This document shows positions 5,840 through 16,192 of a stretch of 40,634 bases of DNA, one piece after another. Below the pieces are notes generated by a model. That model made no database searches. It saw only the letters and a list, made by a program, of their open reading frames with translations, and had not been told where the DNA came from. The position numbers were made by a program, and so were the translations under genes. The stretch covers positions 1 through 40,634 of the IMG/VR virus record IMGVR_UViG_3300005289_000062. One strand, given 5' to 3'. The stretch comes from a virus. Within the stretch, counting starts at the first letter, position 1. Each line of letters begins with the position of its first letter.

Positions 5840-6630
5840 CCACTGAAGCCGCACCCGTCCACTTGAGCAAGTCACAGCTCGGAACACTTTCAACGTGCGC
5901 CCTTCAATACCAACGGAAGTACATTTTCAAGGAACGCGGCGAACCGATGCCCGCGAAGGTCGGCGCTGGAGTCGGGATGCACGCCGCCTTCGCACGGTAC
6001 TTCAACTGCAAGCGCATGGGTCAGACGCTCCCGACCGTCCTCGATATGCTCGCCGTTGCCGATGCCGAGTGGCGCGAGTTCGGCGAGAAGCAGGGCGGTC
6101 TCAGATGGGAAGATCCACCGAACGACGAACAGAACCTCAAGGCAGATCTGCTCCAAGCCATCACCGCCTTTGATTCCAAGGTCGGACCCCTCATCAAGCC
6201 GTGGGGCGTCGAAGTCCCCGCCAAGATCACGCTCAAGTATCCCGACCTCGAGCAGCCCGTCGAAAGTTACATCGACCTCGTGGGCGACGACGAACAGCAC
6301 ACGATCTACGATTGGAAATTCAGCCAACGGTATACTGAGCGAGTCGAGGCGGGGAACGATCATGTCTTGTACTCGTTGTGGGCCAGCGAGAAGTTCGGCA
6401 TCCCGAACACCCCGTTCAAGACGGTCCAGTTCGTGAGATACAAGAAGGGGCTCGAGATCAGAGGACTCGAGGATGACCAGGCGTTCCTCGTGACTCCCGC
6501 AGATCGTGAGTGGCACTTGAAGCACGTCGTCTACGAAGCCATCCGACTCAAGAACGCGGGGATCTACATGGCGAACGTCGCCAACTGCAATTGGTGTGCT
6601 TTTAAAAGCACCTGTCGCCCGACCGTGTGA
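5836..6630 (+). CDS. Cas4/RecB-like PD-(D/E)XK nuclease with Fe-S cluster cysteines
   Basis: 264 residues, ATG 5836. This family resects double-stranded DNA ends and in phages usually accompanies a Bet/RecT annealing protein. Visible features: an N-terminal LSKSQLGTLSTCALQYQRKY with the first cluster cysteine, VGMHAAFARYF (the GxxxH region), the active-site series YIDLVGDDE and IYDWKFSQ (D ... D-x-K), and a C-terminal C-x2-C-x5-C (CNWCAFKSTC) that would complete a 4Fe-4S site. The layout matches RecB-nuclease/Cas4-type proteins. Its stop is at 6628-6630, directly inside the promoter-like GTGATATAAT of the RNA element that follows. Confidence 0.85.
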   Translation: MTTEAAPVHLSKSQLGTLSTCALQYQRKYIFKERGEPMPAKVGAGVGMHAAFARYFNCKRMGQTLPTVLDMLAVADAEWREFGEKQGGLRWEDPPNDEQNLKADLLQAITAFDSKVGPLIKPWGVEVPAKITLKYPDLEQPVESYIDLVGDDEQHTIYDWKFSQRYTERVEAGNDHVLYSLWASEKFGIPNTPFKTVQFVRYKKGLEIRGLEDDQAFLVTPADREWHLKHVVYEAIRLKNAGIYMANVANCNWCAFKSTCRPTV

Positions 6631-6737
6631 TATAATGACCGTGGATGCAGCGGCAGAAACTTCTCGAACCCCGTTCGGACAGTCTCTAGTCGTCGCTGCA
6701 TCCACGGTCACGTCTAAGGGACTTTCGAGCGGGGCTC
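6627..6737 (+). ncRNA. Candidate pseudoknotted leader RNA, copy 1, with extended -10 promoter
   Basis: TGATATAAT (6628-6636) is a perfect -10 with a TGn extension, so transcripts would start near 6643. Arm A (6636-6652, TGACCGTGGATGCAGCG) is perfectly complementary to A' (6694-6710). Inside that loop, B (6666-6679) pairs with B' (6724-6737) downstream of A', with one mismatch and two G-U pairs: an H-type pseudoknot. B' touches the AGGGAG ribosome-binding site (6738-6743) of the HNH gene, so folding could control its translation. B (CGAAC-CCC-GTTCG) and B' (GAGC-GGG-GCTC) can also form small hairpins with complementary loops. Copy 2 lies at 10680-10776. No known RNA family is recognised. Confidence 0.6.
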
Positions 6738-6751
6738 AGGGAGCTTCAGCT

Positions 6752-7267
6752 ATGGGTCACATCTTGATTCCTCTGACCCAAGGTAAGTTCGCCACGATAG
6801 ACGCCGTTGACTACGAGCTGGTATCACCGATCAAGTGGTGCGCTCATTACCAGCCAAGCAAGAACTCCGAGCGTTGGTACGCGGTCAGCGGAACCACAGC
6901 CCAGAAGATGCACCGTCTTATCATGGGAGCAAAGGCTAACGAACCCATAGACCACATCGACGGAGACGGCTTAAACAACAAACGCTCTAATCTGCGAATC
7001 GCCACCGGATCAATCAACCAACGGAACCAAAGAAAGACGAGAGGCACGTCAAGATATATGGGCGTCAGCCATCGCGGGAACAACAACCGTGGGAAACCGT
7101 ATAAGAAATCTCCTTGGACAGCGATGCTGAAAACCGATGGCCCACAAAGGTACTTAGGCGTCTTTGCTACCGAGGAAGATGCTGCCCTGGCGTGGAACCA
7201 AGCTGTCTTGAAATCACGCGGACCAACGGCCCGCCTTAACGTGATTGCTCAAAGGCCAAGTCTCTAG
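6752..7267 (+). CDS. HNH homing endonuclease with AP2 DNA-binding domain
   Basis: 171 residues. Start ATG 6752 is 8 bases after AGGGAG; the frame is open upstream through the structured leader, but that part looks non-coding. Residues about 50-100 carry an HNH_3-type site (MHRLIMGAK, IDHIDGDGLNNKRSNLRIAT, NQRN), and residues about 105-165 an AP2-type domain (SRYMGVSHR ... WTAMLK ... RYLGVFATEEDAALAWNQAV). Such free-standing endonucleases cut related genomes lacking them and spread by repair. It interrupts the otherwise continuous recombination/replication gene chain, consistent with insertion. Confidence 0.92.
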   Translation: MGHILIPLTQGKFATIDAVDYELVSPIKWCAHYQPSKNSERWYAVSGTTAQKMHRLIMGAKANEPIDHIDGDGLNNKRSNLRIATGSINQRNQRKTRGTSRYMGVSHRGNNNRGKPYKKSPWTAMLKTDGPQRYLGVFATEEDAALAWNQAVLKSRGPTARLNVIAQRPSL

Positions 7268-7275
7268 GAGTTCTT

Positions 7276-7320
7276 ATGCCCCCTAACCCCCACCTCGTCA
7301 GCCGGGAGAAGTGCAAGTGA
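7276..7320 (+). CDS. Possible 14-residue micro-ORF
   Basis: ATG 7276 sits 5 bases after AGGAG (formed with the stop of the HNH gene) and encodes MPPNPHLVSREKCK before TGA at 7318-7320. The ribosome-binding site is better than that of many real genes here. It might be a leader peptide for the gene at 7339 or the remnant of a gene disrupted by the HNH insertion. Support is only the initiation site. Confidence 0.3.
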   Translation: MPPNPHLVSREKCK

Positions 7321-7338
7321 AACTAGATTGGAGGAATG

Positions 7339-7875
7339 ATGAACCTTGTGACCTTGGAAATGACGCCTAGGAACGCCCGCACGGAAGCCGAGAGGTACGC
7401 GAAGTGTGAAAACCTCACACCTCAAGACAAGCACATCCTTGAAGCCTATCGGTCCATCGCCCACGGCGGAAAGATCATAGCCTTGGGTGAGACTCTACGA
7501 AAGGCTGGCCTGAACGAGAACGGCACGCCGAAGCTGGCCATCTGCCGGGCGGACGCAAAGGAAGTCACGCTCACGTTCTACATGGACGGCATGGAGTTCA
7601 CGGGCGATGACGTCGGGTATTGGCACATGAGAAAGGTTAAGACTGAGAACTTCACAAAGTGGAATAGCAGAGAACACATCTCCGCGCGGCTTCCCTATGT
7701 GCCACCGTACATCCGCGTCGGGAACATGAGCGACTACTTCATCCTCTGGGAAGTGAAGTGGAAATCCAAGCCGCCCCCGAGCGATCCGTTCCTACTCAAG
7801 AGGCTCGACGACAACTTGTTCCGCGTGGTTTCGGCGTGGGACATCACGCCCATTGAAGCGGCGGCACTTCTATGA
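7339..7875 (+). CDS. Hypothetical protein
   Basis: 178 residues. GGAGG (7330-7334) precedes two adjacent ATGs (7336, 7339); the second has the better spacing. The protein is mixed alpha/beta with no recognisable motif: an N-terminal helical part (EAERYAKCENLTPQDKHILEAYRS) and a C-terminal part with many aromatic residues (YVPPYIRVGNMSDYFILWEVKW). It starts the array of small genes that runs to 10675, coupled by ATGA to the next. Confidence 0.65.
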   Translation: MNLVTLEMTPRNARTEAERYAKCENLTPQDKHILEAYRSIAHGGKIIALGETLRKAGLNENGTPKLAICRADAKEVTLTFYMDGMEFTGDDVGYWHMRKVKTENFTKWNSREHISARLPYVPPYIRVGNMSDYFILWEVKWKSKPPPSDPFLLKRLDDNLFRVVSAWDITPIEAAALL

Positions 7876-8102
7876 CCCCCAAGGAGCCCCAAGTGAAAAA
7901 GACGGCGGTGGAGAAGTGGTGCAGGTGCGGGCACAAGAGAGGCCATCACGCTCAAGGCGACTTCTCAAGTGCGTGTTGGGTCTACATGGATACGCGGGGA
8001 AAGAAGAACTACAGCTACGCCAAGCACGGCGTTGCGACTAGATGCAAGTGCAGGAGCTTCCGCCCCCTCGCGTTGAAGCCGCCGACGAGGAGAGGAAAAT
8101 GA
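7872..8102 (+). CDS. Small Cys/His-rich basic protein
   Basis: 76 residues, ATG 7872 overlapping the previous stop. CRCGHKRGHH at residues 17-26, a single Cys, and a C-x-C pair (TRCKCRSF) later give a likely zinc site. The protein is strongly basic, which fits nucleic-acid binding. The C-x-C motif also occurs in the small proteins at 8830 and 8967. Function unknown. Confidence 0.65.
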   Translation: MTPKEPQVKKTAVEKWCRCGHKRGHHAQGDFSSACWVYMDTRGKKNYSYAKHGVATRCKCRSFRPLALKPPTRRGK

Positions 8103-8323
8103 GCAGGGCGACGATGATCTGTCACGCAATCCTGTGCCTCTGGCTTTTCACTTCGCCATTCATTGACGCTGAATGGTGGATCGTGGCGGTCGCAATTGCG
8201 GGCGTGGCCTTGTTCTCAATGGACCTGATCCGCGAGCAACGTGAGGCTAAGTTTCGCGCTGAATGGGAGCGCAAGTTCGCCGCCCTCGCCGCCCAGCACG
8301 GGAAGGAGAAACGCCGTGAGTGA
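8099..8323 (+). CDS. Small membrane protein
   Basis: 74 residues, ATG 8099 after AGAGGAAA and overlapping the previous stop. Two hydrophobic stretches (ICHAILCLWLFTSPFI and WWIVAVAIAGVALFSM) separated by a short polar turn predict a membrane hairpin, followed by a charged helical tail (REQREAKFRAEWERKF). Such early small membrane proteins can act in host takeover or exclusion; nothing specific is visible. Confidence 0.65.
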   Translation: MSRATMICHAILCLWLFTSPFIDAEWWIVAVAIAGVALFSMDLIREQREAKFRAEWERKFAALAAQHGKEKRRE

Positions 8324-8543
8324 CTACCCGAGGGTGAAACAGCCGTGGTGCCGCGTTCGCACTCAAAAGCACAAATGGGAGTTCGTCGGCGTTGATGGGT
8401 TTCAGAAACGGGCGGCACCCGGAGACAAGAGGCCGCGTGGATTCTACGTCACGTTCGGCTGTCAGCGTTGCGGCGCAACTGTTTCGCATGAGTTCTTTCC
8501 GAATGATGCAGAGGCAGAATTGACAGTGGAGTGCAAACCATGA
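8316..8543 (+). CDS. Small hypothetical protein with one CxxC
   Basis: 75 residues, GTG 8316 after GGAAGGAG, overlapping the upstream gene by 8 bases. It contains a single CQRC pair and is rich in aromatic and basic residues (WCRVRTQKHKWEFVG). No family recognised. Its stop overlaps the next ATG. Confidence 0.6.
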   Translation: MSDYPRVKQPWCRVRTQKHKWEFVGVDGFQKRAAPGDKRPRGFYVTFGCQRCGATVSHEFFPNDAEAELTVECKP

Positions 8544-8833
8544 CCACCGAGCGCGAGAAGGAGATCAGGGAGAGGGTCAAGAGGGCTGTAGATGCCCCGC
8601 ATGGCTATCGACAAATGCATTCTCACGCCCTCGGGGACTTGGAATGGTGCCTCGAAACCATCGCCGCGCTGAAGGCCGAGATCGAGGCGGCGGAGAAGCG
8701 GGGGACGAAGCACGGGCTCGAGGACGCCATTCACATCATCCAAGGCGGGAGCTTCCTGACCGCCGATTCACCCGAGCGCAAGTGGGCGAACGCCGTCGAG
8801 AAGCTGATCCGAAAGGAGATTGAGAAGCTATGA
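8540..8833 (+). CDS. Small helical hypothetical protein
   Basis: 97 residues, ATG 8540 overlapping the previous stop (ATGA). Charged helical sequence throughout (EREKEIRERVKRAVDA ... CLETIAALKAEIEAAEKRG) suggests a coiled coil. The RMHSHALGDLEWCLE-like centre resembles small phage proteins annotated as hypothetical. The downstream start overlaps its stop. Confidence 0.65.
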   Translation: MTTEREKEIRERVKRAVDAPHGYRQMHSHALGDLEWCLETIAALKAEIEAAEKRGTKHGLEDAIHIIQGGSFLTADSPERKWANAVEKLIRKEIEKL

Positions 8834-8970
8834 CTCGCACCCTAGAGCAGATCGTGGAGGAGAACGACGCAGAGCATTGTCACGAGAAGGACTGGGGTTG
8901 CGAATGGCCGAAGGCGTGTGAATGCACCTGCGAGGATTGCGAGGAAGCTATGGCTGGAGGTAACAAGTGA
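8830..8970 (+). CDS. Cys-rich mini-protein (46 aa)
   Basis: ATG 8830 overlaps the preceding stop. The 46 residues are acidic and contain HCH, a single Cys, then C-x-C-x-C-x2-C (CECTCEDC). The following gene encodes a similarly built protein with the same ending, so the two are probably tandem paralogs or at least share a metal-binding fold. The cysteine spacing would suit one zinc or a small cluster. Continuous stop-start overlaps on both sides support that it is a real gene. Confidence 0.6.
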   Translation: MTRTLEQIVEENDAEHCHEKDWGCEWPKACECTCEDCEEAMAGGNK

Positions 8971-9122
8971 CCCGCCCTCCTCGTCGCACGAAGGCGAAGG
9001 CGGTGAAGGCGAGCCACTGTCACGACGGCTTCAACTGCTTCACTGACAAGCGGTACAAGTGCGGATGCTACTGCGATGGGTGCAAGGCACTCCGCGAACT
9101 GCCCGCACGGAGGCGCAGGTGA
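8967..9122 (+). CDS. Cys-rich mini-protein (51 aa), paralog of the upstream one
   Basis: GTG 8967 overlaps the previous TGA. A basic N-terminus (RRTKAKAVKA) is followed by HCHDGFNC and C-x-C-x-C-x2-C (CGCYCDGC), the same pattern as in the 46-residue neighbour, which however is acidic. The opposite charge with a common Cys/His frame is notable. Function unknown. Confidence 0.6.
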   Translation: MTRPPRRTKAKAVKASHCHDGFNCFTDKRYKCGCYCDGCKALRELPARRRR

Positions 9123-9286
9123 AGTGCAAATCCAAGATGTCGCATTACCTCACAGACACCTTTTGGCGGTGTGTCAGAGTCGCGGGTCATCGCGGGATGT
9201 GCCGAGGCTCGTGGGGAAGGCATCCGTACCGCTGGTTCTATGTGAAGCCCGCGCGTAAGCCGGGCGAGAGGGGGAGGGGCAAGTGA
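9119..9286 (+). CDS. Small basic hypothetical protein (55 aa)
   Basis: GTG 9119 overlaps the previous stop and follows GGAGG by 5 bases. The protein has three Cys (residues 3, 18 and 28), HRG and a WRC...C pattern and a strongly basic, Arg/Gly/Lys-rich C-terminus. It may bind nucleic acid. No family recognised. The stop overlaps the next GTG. Confidence 0.6.
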   Translation: MKCKSKMSHYLTDTFWRCVRVAGHRGMCRGSWGRHPYRWFYVKPARKPGERGRGK

Positions 9287-9630
9287 CAGACGTAGTGGTG
9301 ACGGTCCCGAAAGGGATGTGGGAGGATTGGATCGACGAGGGCGACCTTCCCGGCGATCCTCCGACCGGCGAAACGTGGGGCTTCTTCACTTGGGGCGCAC
9401 GGCCAAAGATCGAAGTCGGCGAACGGGTCTACGTCGTCGCGCACGGAAAGCTCAGAGGTTACGCGCCGCTCACAAAGCTGGAAGTCAACGGCGGCAACAT
9501 CGCGTTCGGTCGTGGGGCGGGCGCGGTAGCCGTCACGATTCCCGAGCCCATCCGAGGCTTCCGAGGCTGGCGATACCGCTGGTGGAGCCTTGACCTTGAA
9601 CACCCATTCGCAGATTGGAGAACGCCATGA
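9283..9630 (+). CDS. Hypothetical protein, possibly PUA/ASCH-like
   Basis: 115 residues, GTG 9283. The start VVVTVPKGMWEDWIDEGDLPG, the central beta region with KIEVGERVYVVAHGKLRGYAPL, and the aromatic end GFRGWRYRWW resemble small beta-barrel domains of the PUA/ASCH type, which bind RNA or modified bases. This is a fold-level impression only. It is in the middle of the tiny-gene array and coupled on both sides. Confidence 0.6.
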   Translation: MTDVVVTVPKGMWEDWIDEGDLPGDPPTGETWGFFTWGARPKIEVGERVYVVAHGKLRGYAPLTKLEVNGGNIAFGRGAGAVAVTIPEPIRGFRGWRYRWWSLDLEHPFADWRTP

Positions 9631-9995
9631 CCGATCCAGCCCCCGCCCATCGGCAGGAGAGCCTTGACGAGAAGATGGTCGAGGAGGCGCGAGAAGCGTA
9701 CTTCGACGGTGGAGGTTCAGCCCATGAGTACGACGCTGAAACGCCGATCTGCACTAATGGCTTCCGCGCCGCCCTTCTAGTCGCCGTGAAAGCGACGAGA
9801 GCGGAGTGCGCGAAGGCCGTGGACGACGAGCCCGAATTGAACGACGAGCCGCCACCTGAGATGAAGGAAGAATTGAAGAAGTGCTTCCCTGATTTCACGC
9901 AGTACGACTTCGACACCTTGGTTGGAATCCTACGGCTCACGGTCAAATTGACGAAGGACGAAATCCGAAAGCGAATCGAGAGGGCGCATGATTGA
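9627..9995 (+). CDS. Hypothetical acidic protein
   Basis: 122 residues, ATG 9627 after TTGGAGAA, overlapping the previous stop. Acidic and helical (DEKMVEEAREAYFDGGG ... FRAALLVAVKATRAECAKAV), with an ELNDEPPPEMKEEL linker. The pattern of a short helix followed by a 'x-x-F-R-A-A-L' helix is common among small phage proteins of unknown role. Overlaps the next start by eight bases. Confidence 0.65.
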   Translation: MTDPAPAHRQESLDEKMVEEAREAYFDGGGSAHEYDAETPICTNGFRAALLVAVKATRAECAKAVDDEPELNDEPPPEMKEELKKCFPDFTQYDFDTLVGILRLTVKLTKDEIRKRIERAHD

Positions 9996-10143
9996 GTATT
10001 GCGGGCGATGTTTCGGGACTCAGTTTGAATCTATCGCCTTCCCTTACGGGACCGCGGCGATAGTGAAGTGCTGGTGTCTCGGGTGCGGATACTTCTTTGT
10101 GTATGTCATTGAGACCGCAACGGATTCTACTTGGTCGAGGTAG
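9988..10143 (+). CDS. Small zinc-ribbon protein (51 aa)
   Basis: ATG 9988 lies inside the end of the previous gene. CGRC at residues 5-8 and CLGC at residues 30-33 form a clean two-knuckle zinc ribbon, with beta-type sequence between (FPYGTAAIVKCW) and after it (YFFVYVIE). No further motif. Nucleic-acid or protein binding is likely. Confidence 0.65.
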   Translation: MIEYCGRCFGTQFESIAFPYGTAAIVKCWCLGCGYFFVYVIETATDSTWSR

Positions 10144-10181
10144 CCCCCTGACCATCGCAAGCGGGAGGCGAAGGAGGAAGG

Positions 10182-10343
10182 ATGAGCTTTGACCATGTGT
10201 GGCACTGGAAGGTGAGGCTTCCGGGCCGCAAGGGGCAGAAGTGCGCCGTCTTGTGGAGATTCAAACGCATGAACTCGGTGCTGATCCAGTTTGAGGACGG
10301 GGCGAAGTATGTCACCAGCAGATACGCCGTGAGGAAAATATGA
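10182..10343 (+). CDS. Small conserved basic beta protein (53 aa)
   Basis: ATG 10182 follows a very strong AAGGAGGAAGG box. WKVRLPGRKGQKCAVLWR and MNSVLIQFEDGAKYVTSRYAVRK match a small family of phage and bacterial proteins I recall as hypothetical, with an SH3-like five-strand pattern. Probably a nucleic-acid-associated small barrel; unproven. Its stop overlaps the next ATG. Confidence 0.7.
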   Translation: MSFDHVWHWKVRLPGRKGQKCAVLWRFKRMNSVLIQFEDGAKYVTSRYAVRKI

Positions 10344-10675
10344 GCATCAACGATGGAGCATCCAGTGAGATCGGGTCACTTCAAGACAGGCTTCATTGTG
10401 TCGAGATCGTCCGCGATGACTTCAAGGCCAGATGGGAAGCGTCCATCAAGGACTGCCTCTCCCTCCGCGCCCGGCTGGAGAAGGCGGAGAGGGTGGTGGA
10501 GGCGGCGAGGGAAACGCGAGACTTGCTGCTCAAAAACTGGAGCGACAATCTTAATTGGCGCAAGGGCCAAGAGCATACCTACTTGGGGCAAATGGACATC
10601 TTGCTTGAATCGGCTCTCGCCGCGCTGGACGCGCAGGGGGAGGCTTCACAACCTGGACCGGATGTGGTAAGATAG
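10340..10675 (+). CDS. Hypothetical coiled-coil protein
   Basis: 111 residues, ATG 10340 overlapping the previous stop. Heptad-like helices (LRARLEKAERVVEAARETRDLLL) predict a coiled coil. This is the last gene of the small-gene array. The end of the gene overlaps the promoter-like elements at 10645-10673 for the RNA element that follows. Confidence 0.65.
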   Translation: MSINDGASSEIGSLQDRLHCVEIVRDDFKARWEASIKDCLSLRARLEKAERVVEAARETRDLLLKNWSDNLNWRKGQEHTYLGQMDILLESALAALDAQGEASQPGPDVVR

Positions 10676-10776
10676 GAATTGTGACGACGCCTGACAGAAC
10701 TTCTCTCCCCCCTGCGTCCGCTGTCCGACCGGGCGGTCGTCACACATCACTCCACTAGGACACGGCGCAGCGGGGA
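10645..10776 (+). ncRNA. Candidate pseudoknotted leader RNA, copy 2, with promoter
   Basis: TTCACA (10645-10650) and TAAGAT (10668-10673), 17 bases apart and with a TGG extension, place the transcription start at about 10680. Arm A (10680-10688, TGTGACGAC) pairs with A' (10736-10744), extendable by GCC/GGC with one bulge. B (10706-10718) in that loop pairs with B' (10764-10776) after A', 13 positions with one mismatch and one G-U. The A-B-A'-B' order, the linker CAGAACTTCTC before B (CAGAAACTTCTC in copy 1) and CTAGGAC before B' (CTAAGGGAC in copy 1) match copy 1, while the stems differ in sequence but keep pairing. The element leads into the gene at 10806, whose GGAG is about 20 bases further on. 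Confidence 0.6.
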
Positions 10777-10805
10777 AAGGCGTTCTTGTAGGACCGGAGA
10801 GTTGA

Positions 10806-11798
10806 ATGGCAGACACCAGCCAGGACGAACTGTTCCTTCTTGGGGCCTGCCTTTCAGACAACAAGAACATCGAGTGGATCGCAAAGGAAGTCTCTGTCGA
10901 GGAGTTCGGCGAGGCCCATCAGCCCATCTTCGATACCATCTGCCGGCTCTGGGTCAAGGCGCCCAAGAACCCCATCACCACGACCAGCATCTACTACACA
11001 GCCGTCACGCTCACCGACCACAAGGATCAGGCCGGCGCGTGGCAAGCACGCTGCCAGCAGGGAGTGAAGCTGTTCGAGTCCAACGGCATCACGATCCAAG
11101 AAGCCGCGGCGCACATCCACGACGGACGCAGACTCGACCGATTCTCAGCACTCCTCGCGGACTTCATCAAACACAAGGACCGCCCGTTTCAGGAAGTCTC
11201 GATCGCCATCTGCCAGGAGATCCTCCGCGTACTCCAACAGGGCGTCCAGTTCCCGAAGTTCAAAGCTCTCCGCAAGACCATGAGTGACCCGCCCGTCTAC
11301 AAGTTGCTCGTCAGCCTCCACGGAGAGGACCGCACCCTACGCATGACTTACGGCCAGCTCGAGAACCCGAAGGCTATCGAGGGACTGATCTTCCAGCACT
11401 TCAACCGATACCCCGACTACAAGCCAGGCGCCGGCCAGTGGAAGCTCATCCTCTCGAGGCTCGGCCAGTTCATCGAGGAGGACGCCATCGATGAGGAGAC
11501 CCCGAATGAGCTCGTGGCAATGGACCGCAAGGAGCTCACCGAGATCATCGAGGAGTACCTCGACAACGCCAAGCGCGTCTCCAAGGCATCAGAAGTGGTT
11601 CCCAGGACTGTCCTTGAAGTTCCGGAGGAAGGCAAGATCGGCCTGAATTTCAGGGATCTGTTCAATTACTGTCGCTCCAAGGGCGTTACCCCAGCAAACA
11701 CAAAACTCGGTCAATCCCTGTCCGATATGGGGTTTAAGAAGTCACGCCTTGGCACCGGAAGGGTCCGCCTATGGTCGAGGACAGACGAACTGGTTTGA
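10806..11798 (+). CDS. Replication protein with DnaB N-terminal-like domain, no helicase motor
   Basis: 330 residues, ATG 10806 after GGAG. Residues about 5-55 (ELFLLGACLSDNKNIEWIAK ... FGEAHQPIFDTICRLW) follow the pattern of the DnaB helicase N-terminal domain (LGALLLD ... F-x-x-xHx-xIFxAIxxL), which binds primase and mediates hexamer contacts. No Walker A or other ATPase motif follows. The rest is helical, and the last 50 residues (FRDLFNYCRSKGVTPANTKLGQ ... RVRLW) look like a small winged-helix seen at the end of phage primase-helicases. It may be a helicase-loading or origin-binding protein; the candidate origin lies immediately downstream. Confidence 0.55.
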   Translation: MADTSQDELFLLGACLSDNKNIEWIAKEVSVEEFGEAHQPIFDTICRLWVKAPKNPITTTSIYYTAVTLTDHKDQAGAWQARCQQGVKLFESNGITIQEAAAHIHDGRRLDRFSALLADFIKHKDRPFQEVSIAICQEILRVLQQGVQFPKFKALRKTMSDPPVYKLLVSLHGEDRTLRMTYGQLENPKAIEGLIFQHFNRYPDYKPGAGQWKLILSRLGQFIEEDAIDEETPNELVAMDRKELTEIIEEYLDNAKRVSKASEVVPRTVLEVPEEGKIGLNFRDLFNYCRSKGVTPANTKLGQSLSDMGFKKSRLGTGRVRLWSRTDELV

Positions 11799-16166: not shown

Positions 16167-16192
16167 AAGAACCCGGGGGTTAGCCCGGGTTC
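16160..16192 (-). terminator. Intrinsic terminator, minus strand
   Basis: GAACCCGGG (16169-16177) and CCCGGGTTC (16184-16192) form a perfect 9-pair stem with a 6-base loop; on the minus strand TTTTATTTC follows at once. It ends leftward transcription from the gene at 16215-16517 before it enters the right arm. It is just 2 bases past the stop of the plus-strand gene and could also protect that mRNA. Confidence 0.8.

Follow-up and report, generated by a model that had tools for sequence, protein, structure and literature searches.

The question raised by this locus is whether a soil phage carries, behind two of its promoters, related pseudoknotted RNAs, and what such RNAs might do. The stretch analyzed here (the window) is the 40,634-nt virus record IMGVR_UViG_3300005289_000062, positions 1 to 40,634, in which the initial annotation described two copies of a leader RNA whose segments A and B pair with A' and B' in the interlocked order A-B-A'-B'.

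Architecture of the two window elements

Both arrangements are present where they had been described, copy 1 at 6636-6737 and copy 2 at 10680-10776, with A/A' of copy 1 comprising 19 bp rather than the 17 given at first. The parts of the two regions are as follows.

Copy 1 (6628-7267)
6628-6636, +: extended -10 box TGATATAAT (sequence), 6 nt from the core A stem
6636-6654, +: segment A, 19 nt, pairing with 6692-6710
6656-6679, +: segment B, core CCCCGTTCGGA (6669-6679) plus a basal extension through the 'linker' GAAACTTCTC, pairing with 6724-6747 with isolated mismatches
6681-6687, +: inner stem C, 5' strand AGTCTCT, pairing with 6717-6723 (AGGGACT)
6692-6710, +: segment A', apical loop of the B/C hairpin (pairing, fold)
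6717-6723, +: inner stem C, 3' strand (pairing), formerly the 'CTAAGGGAC' linker
6724-6747, +: segment B', whose extension covers the Shine-Dalgarno sequence AGGGAG (6738-6743) of the HNH gene
6752-7267, +: HNH endonuclease gene (HNH_3; PHROG 99), first gene after copy 1 (gene annotation)

Copy 2 (10645-11798)
10645-10673, +: promoter TTCACA - 17 nt - TAAGAT with TG before the -10 box (sequence)
10680-10691, +: segment A, 9 bp plus a GCC extension across a bulge, pairing with 10732-10744
10696-10718, +: segment B including the 'linker' AGAACTTCTC, pairing with 10764-10786 over 23 positions
10722-10726, +: inner stem C, 5' strand TGTCC, pairing with 10758-10762 (GGACA) (fold)
10732-10744, +: segment A', apical loop of the B/C hairpin (pairing)
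10758-10762, +: inner stem C, 3' strand (fold)
10764-10786, +: segment B' (pairing)
10806-11798, +: first gene after copy 2, a 330-aa protein with a weak match to the DnaB N-terminal domain (domain match)

Most of what had been read as spacer sequence is in fact stem. The motif CAGAA(A)CTTCTC (CAGAA(A)CUUCUC in the RNA) lies at the foot of the B hairpin and lengthens B/B' in each copy, and the supposed linkers CTAAGGGAC and CTAGGAC contain the 3' strand of the additional inner stem C (6681-6687/6717-6723 and 10722-10726/10758-10762, respectively). In both elements, the order is A-B-A'-B' with A' inside the loop of a long hairpin, and A' is separated from B' by 11-19 nt. Each copy follows a -10 element, as had been noted, but the A stem of copy 1 overlaps its own box. 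From this extended -10 box, transcription is predicted to start at about 6642-6643, and therefore only about 12 bp of the copy 1 A/A' helix (6643-6654) would be present in RNA from that promoter. Counted from 6643 in copy 1, the distance from the -10 box to the start of A is 6-7 nt in both copies.

The pairing of both elements exceeds local chance: the observed pairing was reached by 0 of 3000 local shuffles for copy 1 and by 1 of 3000 for copy 2. In a scan of the whole window, the copies were the two best non-overlapping A-B-A'-B' candidates on the + strand, with summed stacking energies of -68 (copy 1) and -50 (copy 2); the best value among 60 dinucleotide-shuffled windows was -53, so that energy by itself does not set copy 2 apart on the scale of the genome. 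When 2.58 Mb of phage DNA was scanned for A-B-A'-B' with a -10 box required 4-11 nt before A and with reversed sequences as controls, copy 2 (-50.1) exceeded every control (best -47.3), and only the family described below as family D scored above it. Copy 1 drops out of this filtered scan owing to the overlap of its A stem with the -10 box. With the promoter filter dropped, the scan gave no excess over reversed sequence (426 vs. 484), and the bare A-B-A'-B' shape alone is therefore no evidence.

Searches for relatives and known RNA families

Pattern scans of IMG/VR with the exact linker motifs of either copy yielded 10 loci, none of which had the structure. Searches through the adjacent exonuclease and replication genes found no relatives, and a search through the capsid gene yielded a single 7.8-kb contig, whose capsid protein is identical. 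Comparison of both elements with cultured phages by blastn gave chance matches only, and Rfam, at gathering as well as permissive thresholds, gave nothing credible for either copy. The view of the elements as structured promoter-proximal RNAs outside Rfam is supported. A weak match of copy 1 to mraW RNA (RF01746), which likewise has a long leader hairpin, reached 25.0 bits against a gathering score of 50 and was treated as chance. The motif CTAAGGGA resembles J4/2 of the HDV antigenomic ribozyme; an HDV-like ribozyme was rejected, as P1 is not 7 bp and P3/L3 is missing.

The T4 gene 32 leader and other autoregulatory phage leaders have a pseudoknot at the head of a replication-gene mRNA that is bound by the downstream protein, whereas in the family described below unrelated proteins follow the same RNA. 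The STAXI motif (PMC2864571) comprises pseudoknots near genes for DNA-handling proteins, as do the window elements; however, it repeats small pseudoknots in tandem, while the window has one large unit per promoter and gives no match.

Family D, a covarying RNA family in soil phages

The search for relatives of the window elements led to a group of 32 distinct sequences in soil-phage contigs, named here family D (L056, L098-L115, and L117-L233), in which a -10 box is followed by a 5' hairpin and a long hairpin, with pairing of A to A' and of B to B'. Covariation is clear for both pairings (70 double-changed cells vs. 23 in shuffles; 0/500 shuffles), and in an alignment of 27 sequences 83.6% of cells are paired and 15 pairs are changed on both sides, compared with 40-50% of cells paired in slid controls. 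Family D is an evolutionarily conserved, previously undescribed RNA family that is absent from Rfam. The window elements themselves yielded no homolog; the strong covariation belongs to this separate family and bears on them only indirectly. Of 28 sequences, 17 have a TAnnnT box at a distance of 7-10 nt upstream of the 5' hairpin; in the others the distance is 24-32 nt. The only pattern match in bacterial genomes (L116) was judged to be chance and left out.

The family resembles the window copies in strand order, -10 spacing (7-10 nt in its short-gap class vs. 6-7 nt in the two copies, taking 6643 as the start of A in copy 1), a long second hairpin with A' in its loop, and an HNH or replication gene next to it. 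It differs in an invariant 5' hairpin GAGCG...GCUC (GAGCG/(C,U)GCUC) that is absent from both window copies, in the lack of a spacer between A' and B' (11-19 nt in the window), and in having the G-rich strand first. Its covariance model R1 found no match in the window at threshold, the best being copy 1 with 12.2 bits (E 0.054, unfiltered). The two copies themselves show no significant sequence similarity (1356 of 5000 shuffle pairs align equally well), and no covariance model was built from them because a MAFFT alignment left their stems unaligned. Their homology with compensating differences, as proposed in the initial annotation, is unproven, and the positional match of the motif between them is suggestive only. 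These observations, together with the energy of copy 2, which the best sites of some shuffled windows match, would fit two independent stem-loop pairs at two promoters, interlocked by coincidence and unrelated to each other and to family D. We regard this as rather doubtful, since both intergenic gaps carry the layout, each behind a -10 box at a nearly equal distance, each copy has a local p of at most 1/3000, and copy 2 surpasses all controls once a -10 box is required.

The genes behind family D encode HNH_3 with AP2 (L127), HNH (L054 and L229), HTH_36 (L164), or DUF1376 proteins, which are the kinds found near the window copies (HNH_3 after copy 1, a DnaB-N-like protein after copy 2); the DUF1376 proteins had no relatives in bacterial genomes. 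At L156/L184, the family D promoter and RNA occur with no coding gene downstream on that strand; the element there is followed by conserved non-coding DNA and lies among structural genes. A search for tRNAs in these two and three other loci found none. A leader peptide was also considered, as copy 1 and several family D leaders each contain an uninterrupted reading frame; however, L098 and L054 place this frame differently with respect to the RNA, and it is not conserved.

Family D is retained when a different gene follows it, and in one context no gene follows; its function is therefore independent of the downstream gene, which makes a riboswitch or Shine-Dalgarno switch unlikely as a general mechanism. 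The initial annotation had likened copy 1 to translational riboswitches, with B' touching the ribosome-binding site of the HNH gene. In copy 1 the Shine-Dalgarno sequence is engaged (CUUCUC pairs with AGGGAG), and A/A' and the extended B/B' compete. A B hairpin that hides the ribosome-binding site until a ligand, a protein, or A/A' pairing opens it would accord with these features and with the gene start 10-20 nt past the hairpin in most family D members. Against it stand the Shine-Dalgarno sequence of copy 2 (GGAGAG, 10796-10801), which is outside the structure, the distance of about 40 nt to the gene start in L099, L108, and L129, downstream genes unrelated to one another, and the gene-less L156/L184, so that we consider this explanation unlikely.

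The same gene-less context could point to a stand-alone or trans-acting RNA, either a 5' part released as a small RNA or a chain of molecules linked head to tail by their complementary loops, with C4 antisense RNA control and phi29-type ring-forming RNAs as precedents. Complementary loops do occur within one molecule, and in some members the intramolecular linkers offer little length for a rigid kissing complex. C4 antisense RNAs carry two short stretches that are complementary to parts of the same transcript further downstream, and, like the window elements, C4 antisense RNA (RF01695) is a phage RNA preceding a gene; however, neither copy matches its Rfam model, and the complementary segments in the window lie within ~100 nt and would pair in cis. 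As no target was found outside the element and most members directly precede a gene, a trans-acting role appears quite unlikely.

Each of 15 phage records contains exactly one confident family D match, which usually lies in the replication module. With its independence of the gene behind it and the conserved non-coding DNA in L156/L184, this would suit an origin-associated transcript that primes or regulates replication from its own promoter, like RNA II of ColE1-type plasmids. However, the element coincides with neither an A+T-rich stretch nor a switch in GC skew, there are two copies in the window, and the L156/L184 site is among structural genes, which together make such a role improbable.

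A possible action on the transcription complex

The explanation we favor, tentatively and at somewhat short of even odds, is a promoter-proximal RNA that acts on the transcription complex or the transcript, as the put RNAs of phage HK022 do. Each window element would be a structured RNA that is transcribed from a sigma-70-type promoter of its own. Its first 9-12 nt (A) are complementary to A', the apical loop of a long hairpin (B/B' plus C) located about 20 nt downstream. This hairpin would fold co-transcriptionally, after which its loop would pair with the 5' end of the same molecule, so that the transcript would begin with a compact pseudoknotted knob. In family D, the same layout with its small 5' hairpin would make a loop-loop (kissing) contact that could extend to the full A/A' helix. 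Because family D persists across gene swaps and once without a gene, we infer that the knob may act on the transcription complex or the whole transcript, by anti-termination, anti-pausing, or 5'-end protection, and not on the translation of a single gene. The analysis establishes pairing beyond chance and the promoter spacing, and for family D also covariation and gene-independence; folding in the cell and a common way of working of the window copies and family D are inferred, along with the action on transcription.

HK022 has two put RNAs after its early promoters, which act without protein (PMC9378689). These RNAs (putL and putR) resemble the window elements in their length of ~70-100 nt, their place just after phage promoters, their number of two per phage, their folded stems, and their gene-independent position (PMC9378689). 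They act, protein-free, through the zinc-binding domain of the RNA polymerase beta' subunit. In contrast to the window copies, the put RNAs share sequence with each other, and their two stem-loops do not interlock as A-B-A'-B'. For put, anti-termination is proven; for the window elements and family D, it is a proposal by analogy. The occurrence of family D once per phage, compared with two put sites, counts against this explanation, as do the differences of the window copies from family D in spacer and 5' hairpin, their rejection by model R1 at threshold, and the steric impossibility of pairing A together with the whole extended B; terminator-like sites showed no excess in operons that would need anti-termination. 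A broader proposal, which we regard as doubtful, is that phages unrelated to HK022 alter the host RNA polymerase by means of a widespread class of promoter-proximal RNAs, each pairing its 5' end with the apex of the long hairpin that follows; family D and the window elements would be independent branches of it.

A covarying RNA that is absent from Rfam, occurs once per genome in many soil phages, and is retained through exchanges of the downstream gene points to an undescribed function in transcript handling. The near-identical layout of the window elements and family D suggests a possible common way of steering phage transcripts. If family D acts like put, protein-free control of the host RNA polymerase would be far commoner than the HK022 example suggests.

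The window phage and its two putative leader RNAs

The window comprises 40,634 bases, the full length of its IMG/VR record, and belongs to a very divergent tailed phage; the best identity to known phages is approximately 22% for its portal protein and 28% for its helicase. The left arm encodes RecT, an exonuclease, HNH, small genes, a DnaB-N-like protein, and a UvrD-like helicase on the plus strand, and the right-arm genes lie on the minus strand. Near the meeting point of these oppositely transcribed arms there is a strong terminator-like hairpin (GAACCCGGGCTAACCCCCGGGTTC-TTTT, 16169-16192, minus strand). Contig L003 (7.8 kb, IMG metagenome 2162886013) encodes an identical capsid protein and is probably the same virus.

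Putative leader RNA elements in the window
~6636-6747, plus strand: copy 1, between the exonuclease gene (end 6630) and the HNH gene (start 6752)
~10680-10786, plus strand: copy 2, between a small gene (end 10675) and a 330-aa gene (start 10806)

The initial annotation described both elements as interlocking paired segments in the order A-B-A'-B', and the A/A' and B/B' pairings are present where it placed them. In an interlocked-helix scan of the window, copies 1 and 2 ranked first and second among non-overlapping plus-strand candidates, their energies being reached by 0/3000 and 1/3000 local dinucleotide shuffles, respectively. The conserved linkers noted earlier are stem strands and not spacers. 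In each copy, CAGAA(A)CUUCUC extends B/B' to at least 23 positions; the 3' strand of an additional inner stem, C, lies in CUAAGGGAC / CUAGGAC. B and C therefore make up a single long hairpin whose apical loop contains A', and the transcript begins with A. The -10 box of copy 1 extends into the start of A, and transcripts from that promoter would therefore hold approximately 12 of the 19 A bases. The HNH reading frame is open upstream across all of copy 1 (6596-6751), and translation from the ATG at 6635, which shares bases with the -10 box, would give the protein an N-terminal extension; no Shine-Dalgarno sequence was seen at this ATG.

Compensating differences between the copies had also been proposed. 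Since their primary-sequence similarity is not significant (1356/5000 shuffle pairs were as good), we make no such claim, and homology of the copies is unproven. With its anatomy corrected, the original observation is sound. When fully formed, the extended B/B' helix would leave only 0-7 nt for spanning, which makes a complete B/B' incompatible with a complete A/A': either B opens at its base as A/A' forms, or the two compete. Nested folding favours B in copy 2, and in copy 1 the winner varies with the transcription start.

Family D, a covarying phage RNA family

Direct queries with window motifs and neighbouring proteins found no relatives of the window elements. The interlocked-helix scan was then run on 80 IMG/VR loci obtained with a RecT-relative profile, among which L097 and L057 stood out, each with an A-B-A'-B' leader immediately 5' of a DUF1376 gene. 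This set of soil-phage contigs, family D, was widened through DUF1376 relatives and a pattern scan, giving at least 68 and then at least 23 more confident model matches (some being one contig under two locus labels) and at least 32 distinct sequences. Each of 15/15 phage records holds one confident copy.

Family D leaders comprise a -10 box, a 5' hairpin (GAGCG...(C/U)GCUC), a spacer with ACA, a long hairpin with A' in its loop and mostly the G-rich strand first, and then the gene. TAnnnT lies upstream in 28/28 leaders surveyed, 7-10 nt from the 5' hairpin in 17 and 24-32 nt in the others. In an alignment of 27 sequences, 83.6% of cells pair, falling to 40-50% in slid controls; 15 pairs changed on both sides, and 70 cells have both sides changed, compared to 23.4 in shuffles (0/500). 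The 5' hairpin is paired in 27/27, its single variable position being only G-C or G-U. No Rfam family fits; family D is a covarying phage RNA family absent from Rfam. In L101 (959-1119), L104-L107, and L110, a GC-rich hairpin is conserved 5' of the promoter, with CTTCCGGGGG after it; it may be the upstream operon's terminator, lacking a T run. In another locus (L084:60-320), a non-coding stretch contains CCTAACAGA and close variants of it, repeated in the two orientations.

The first downstream gene varies (DUF1376, HNH, HNH_3+AP2, HTH_36). At least three kinds of HNH gene stand in the position held by DUF1376 in other phages (L054, L119, L125, L127, L131, L150, L152, L191, L194, L229). In L156 and L184 the RNA has a canonical promoter (TTGACG-17-TAGATT in L184), but no coding gene lies downstream on its own strand.

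Conserved non-coding DNA after the family D RNA
L156:2714-3150, minus strand
L184:5624-6097, plus strand

These stretches (~440-475 nt, 86% identity over the aligned part) have a divergent phosphoesterase gene on one side and a convergent structural gene on the other, and matched nothing in tRNA and Rfam searches. The A/A' differences between the two loci compensate each other.

Relationship to the window copies and possible function

The window copies share with family D the strand order, A' within the loop of a long hairpin, a following HNH or replication-type gene, and a similar promoter-to-A distance (6-7 nt versus 7-10 nt). In a scan of 2.58 Mb requiring a -10 box, copy 2 fell among family D members, above all reversed-sequence controls. 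In contrast, the window copies lack the 5' hairpin, have an A'-B' spacer where family D has none, and are not recognised by the family D covariance model, R1. The resemblance is thus one of layout; membership is not shown.

Given that the RNA is retained ahead of different genes, and can be gene-less, autoregulation by the downstream protein and Shine-Dalgarno masking are poor general explanations. That a compact fold would appear right behind the polymerase suggests that it may act on the elongation complex, or else that it may shield the transcript's 5' end. Action on the elongation complex has been shown for the put RNAs of phage HK022, two RNAs downstream of early promoters that work without protein and bind the zinc-binding domain of beta' (PMC9378689). 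A close analogy is weighed against by the single copy of family D per genome and by the absence of visible terminators where these were sought. An origin-linked or a trans-acting role of the RNA is also possible. Following the lead of the initial annotation has exposed a covarying phage RNA family whose function can be tested.
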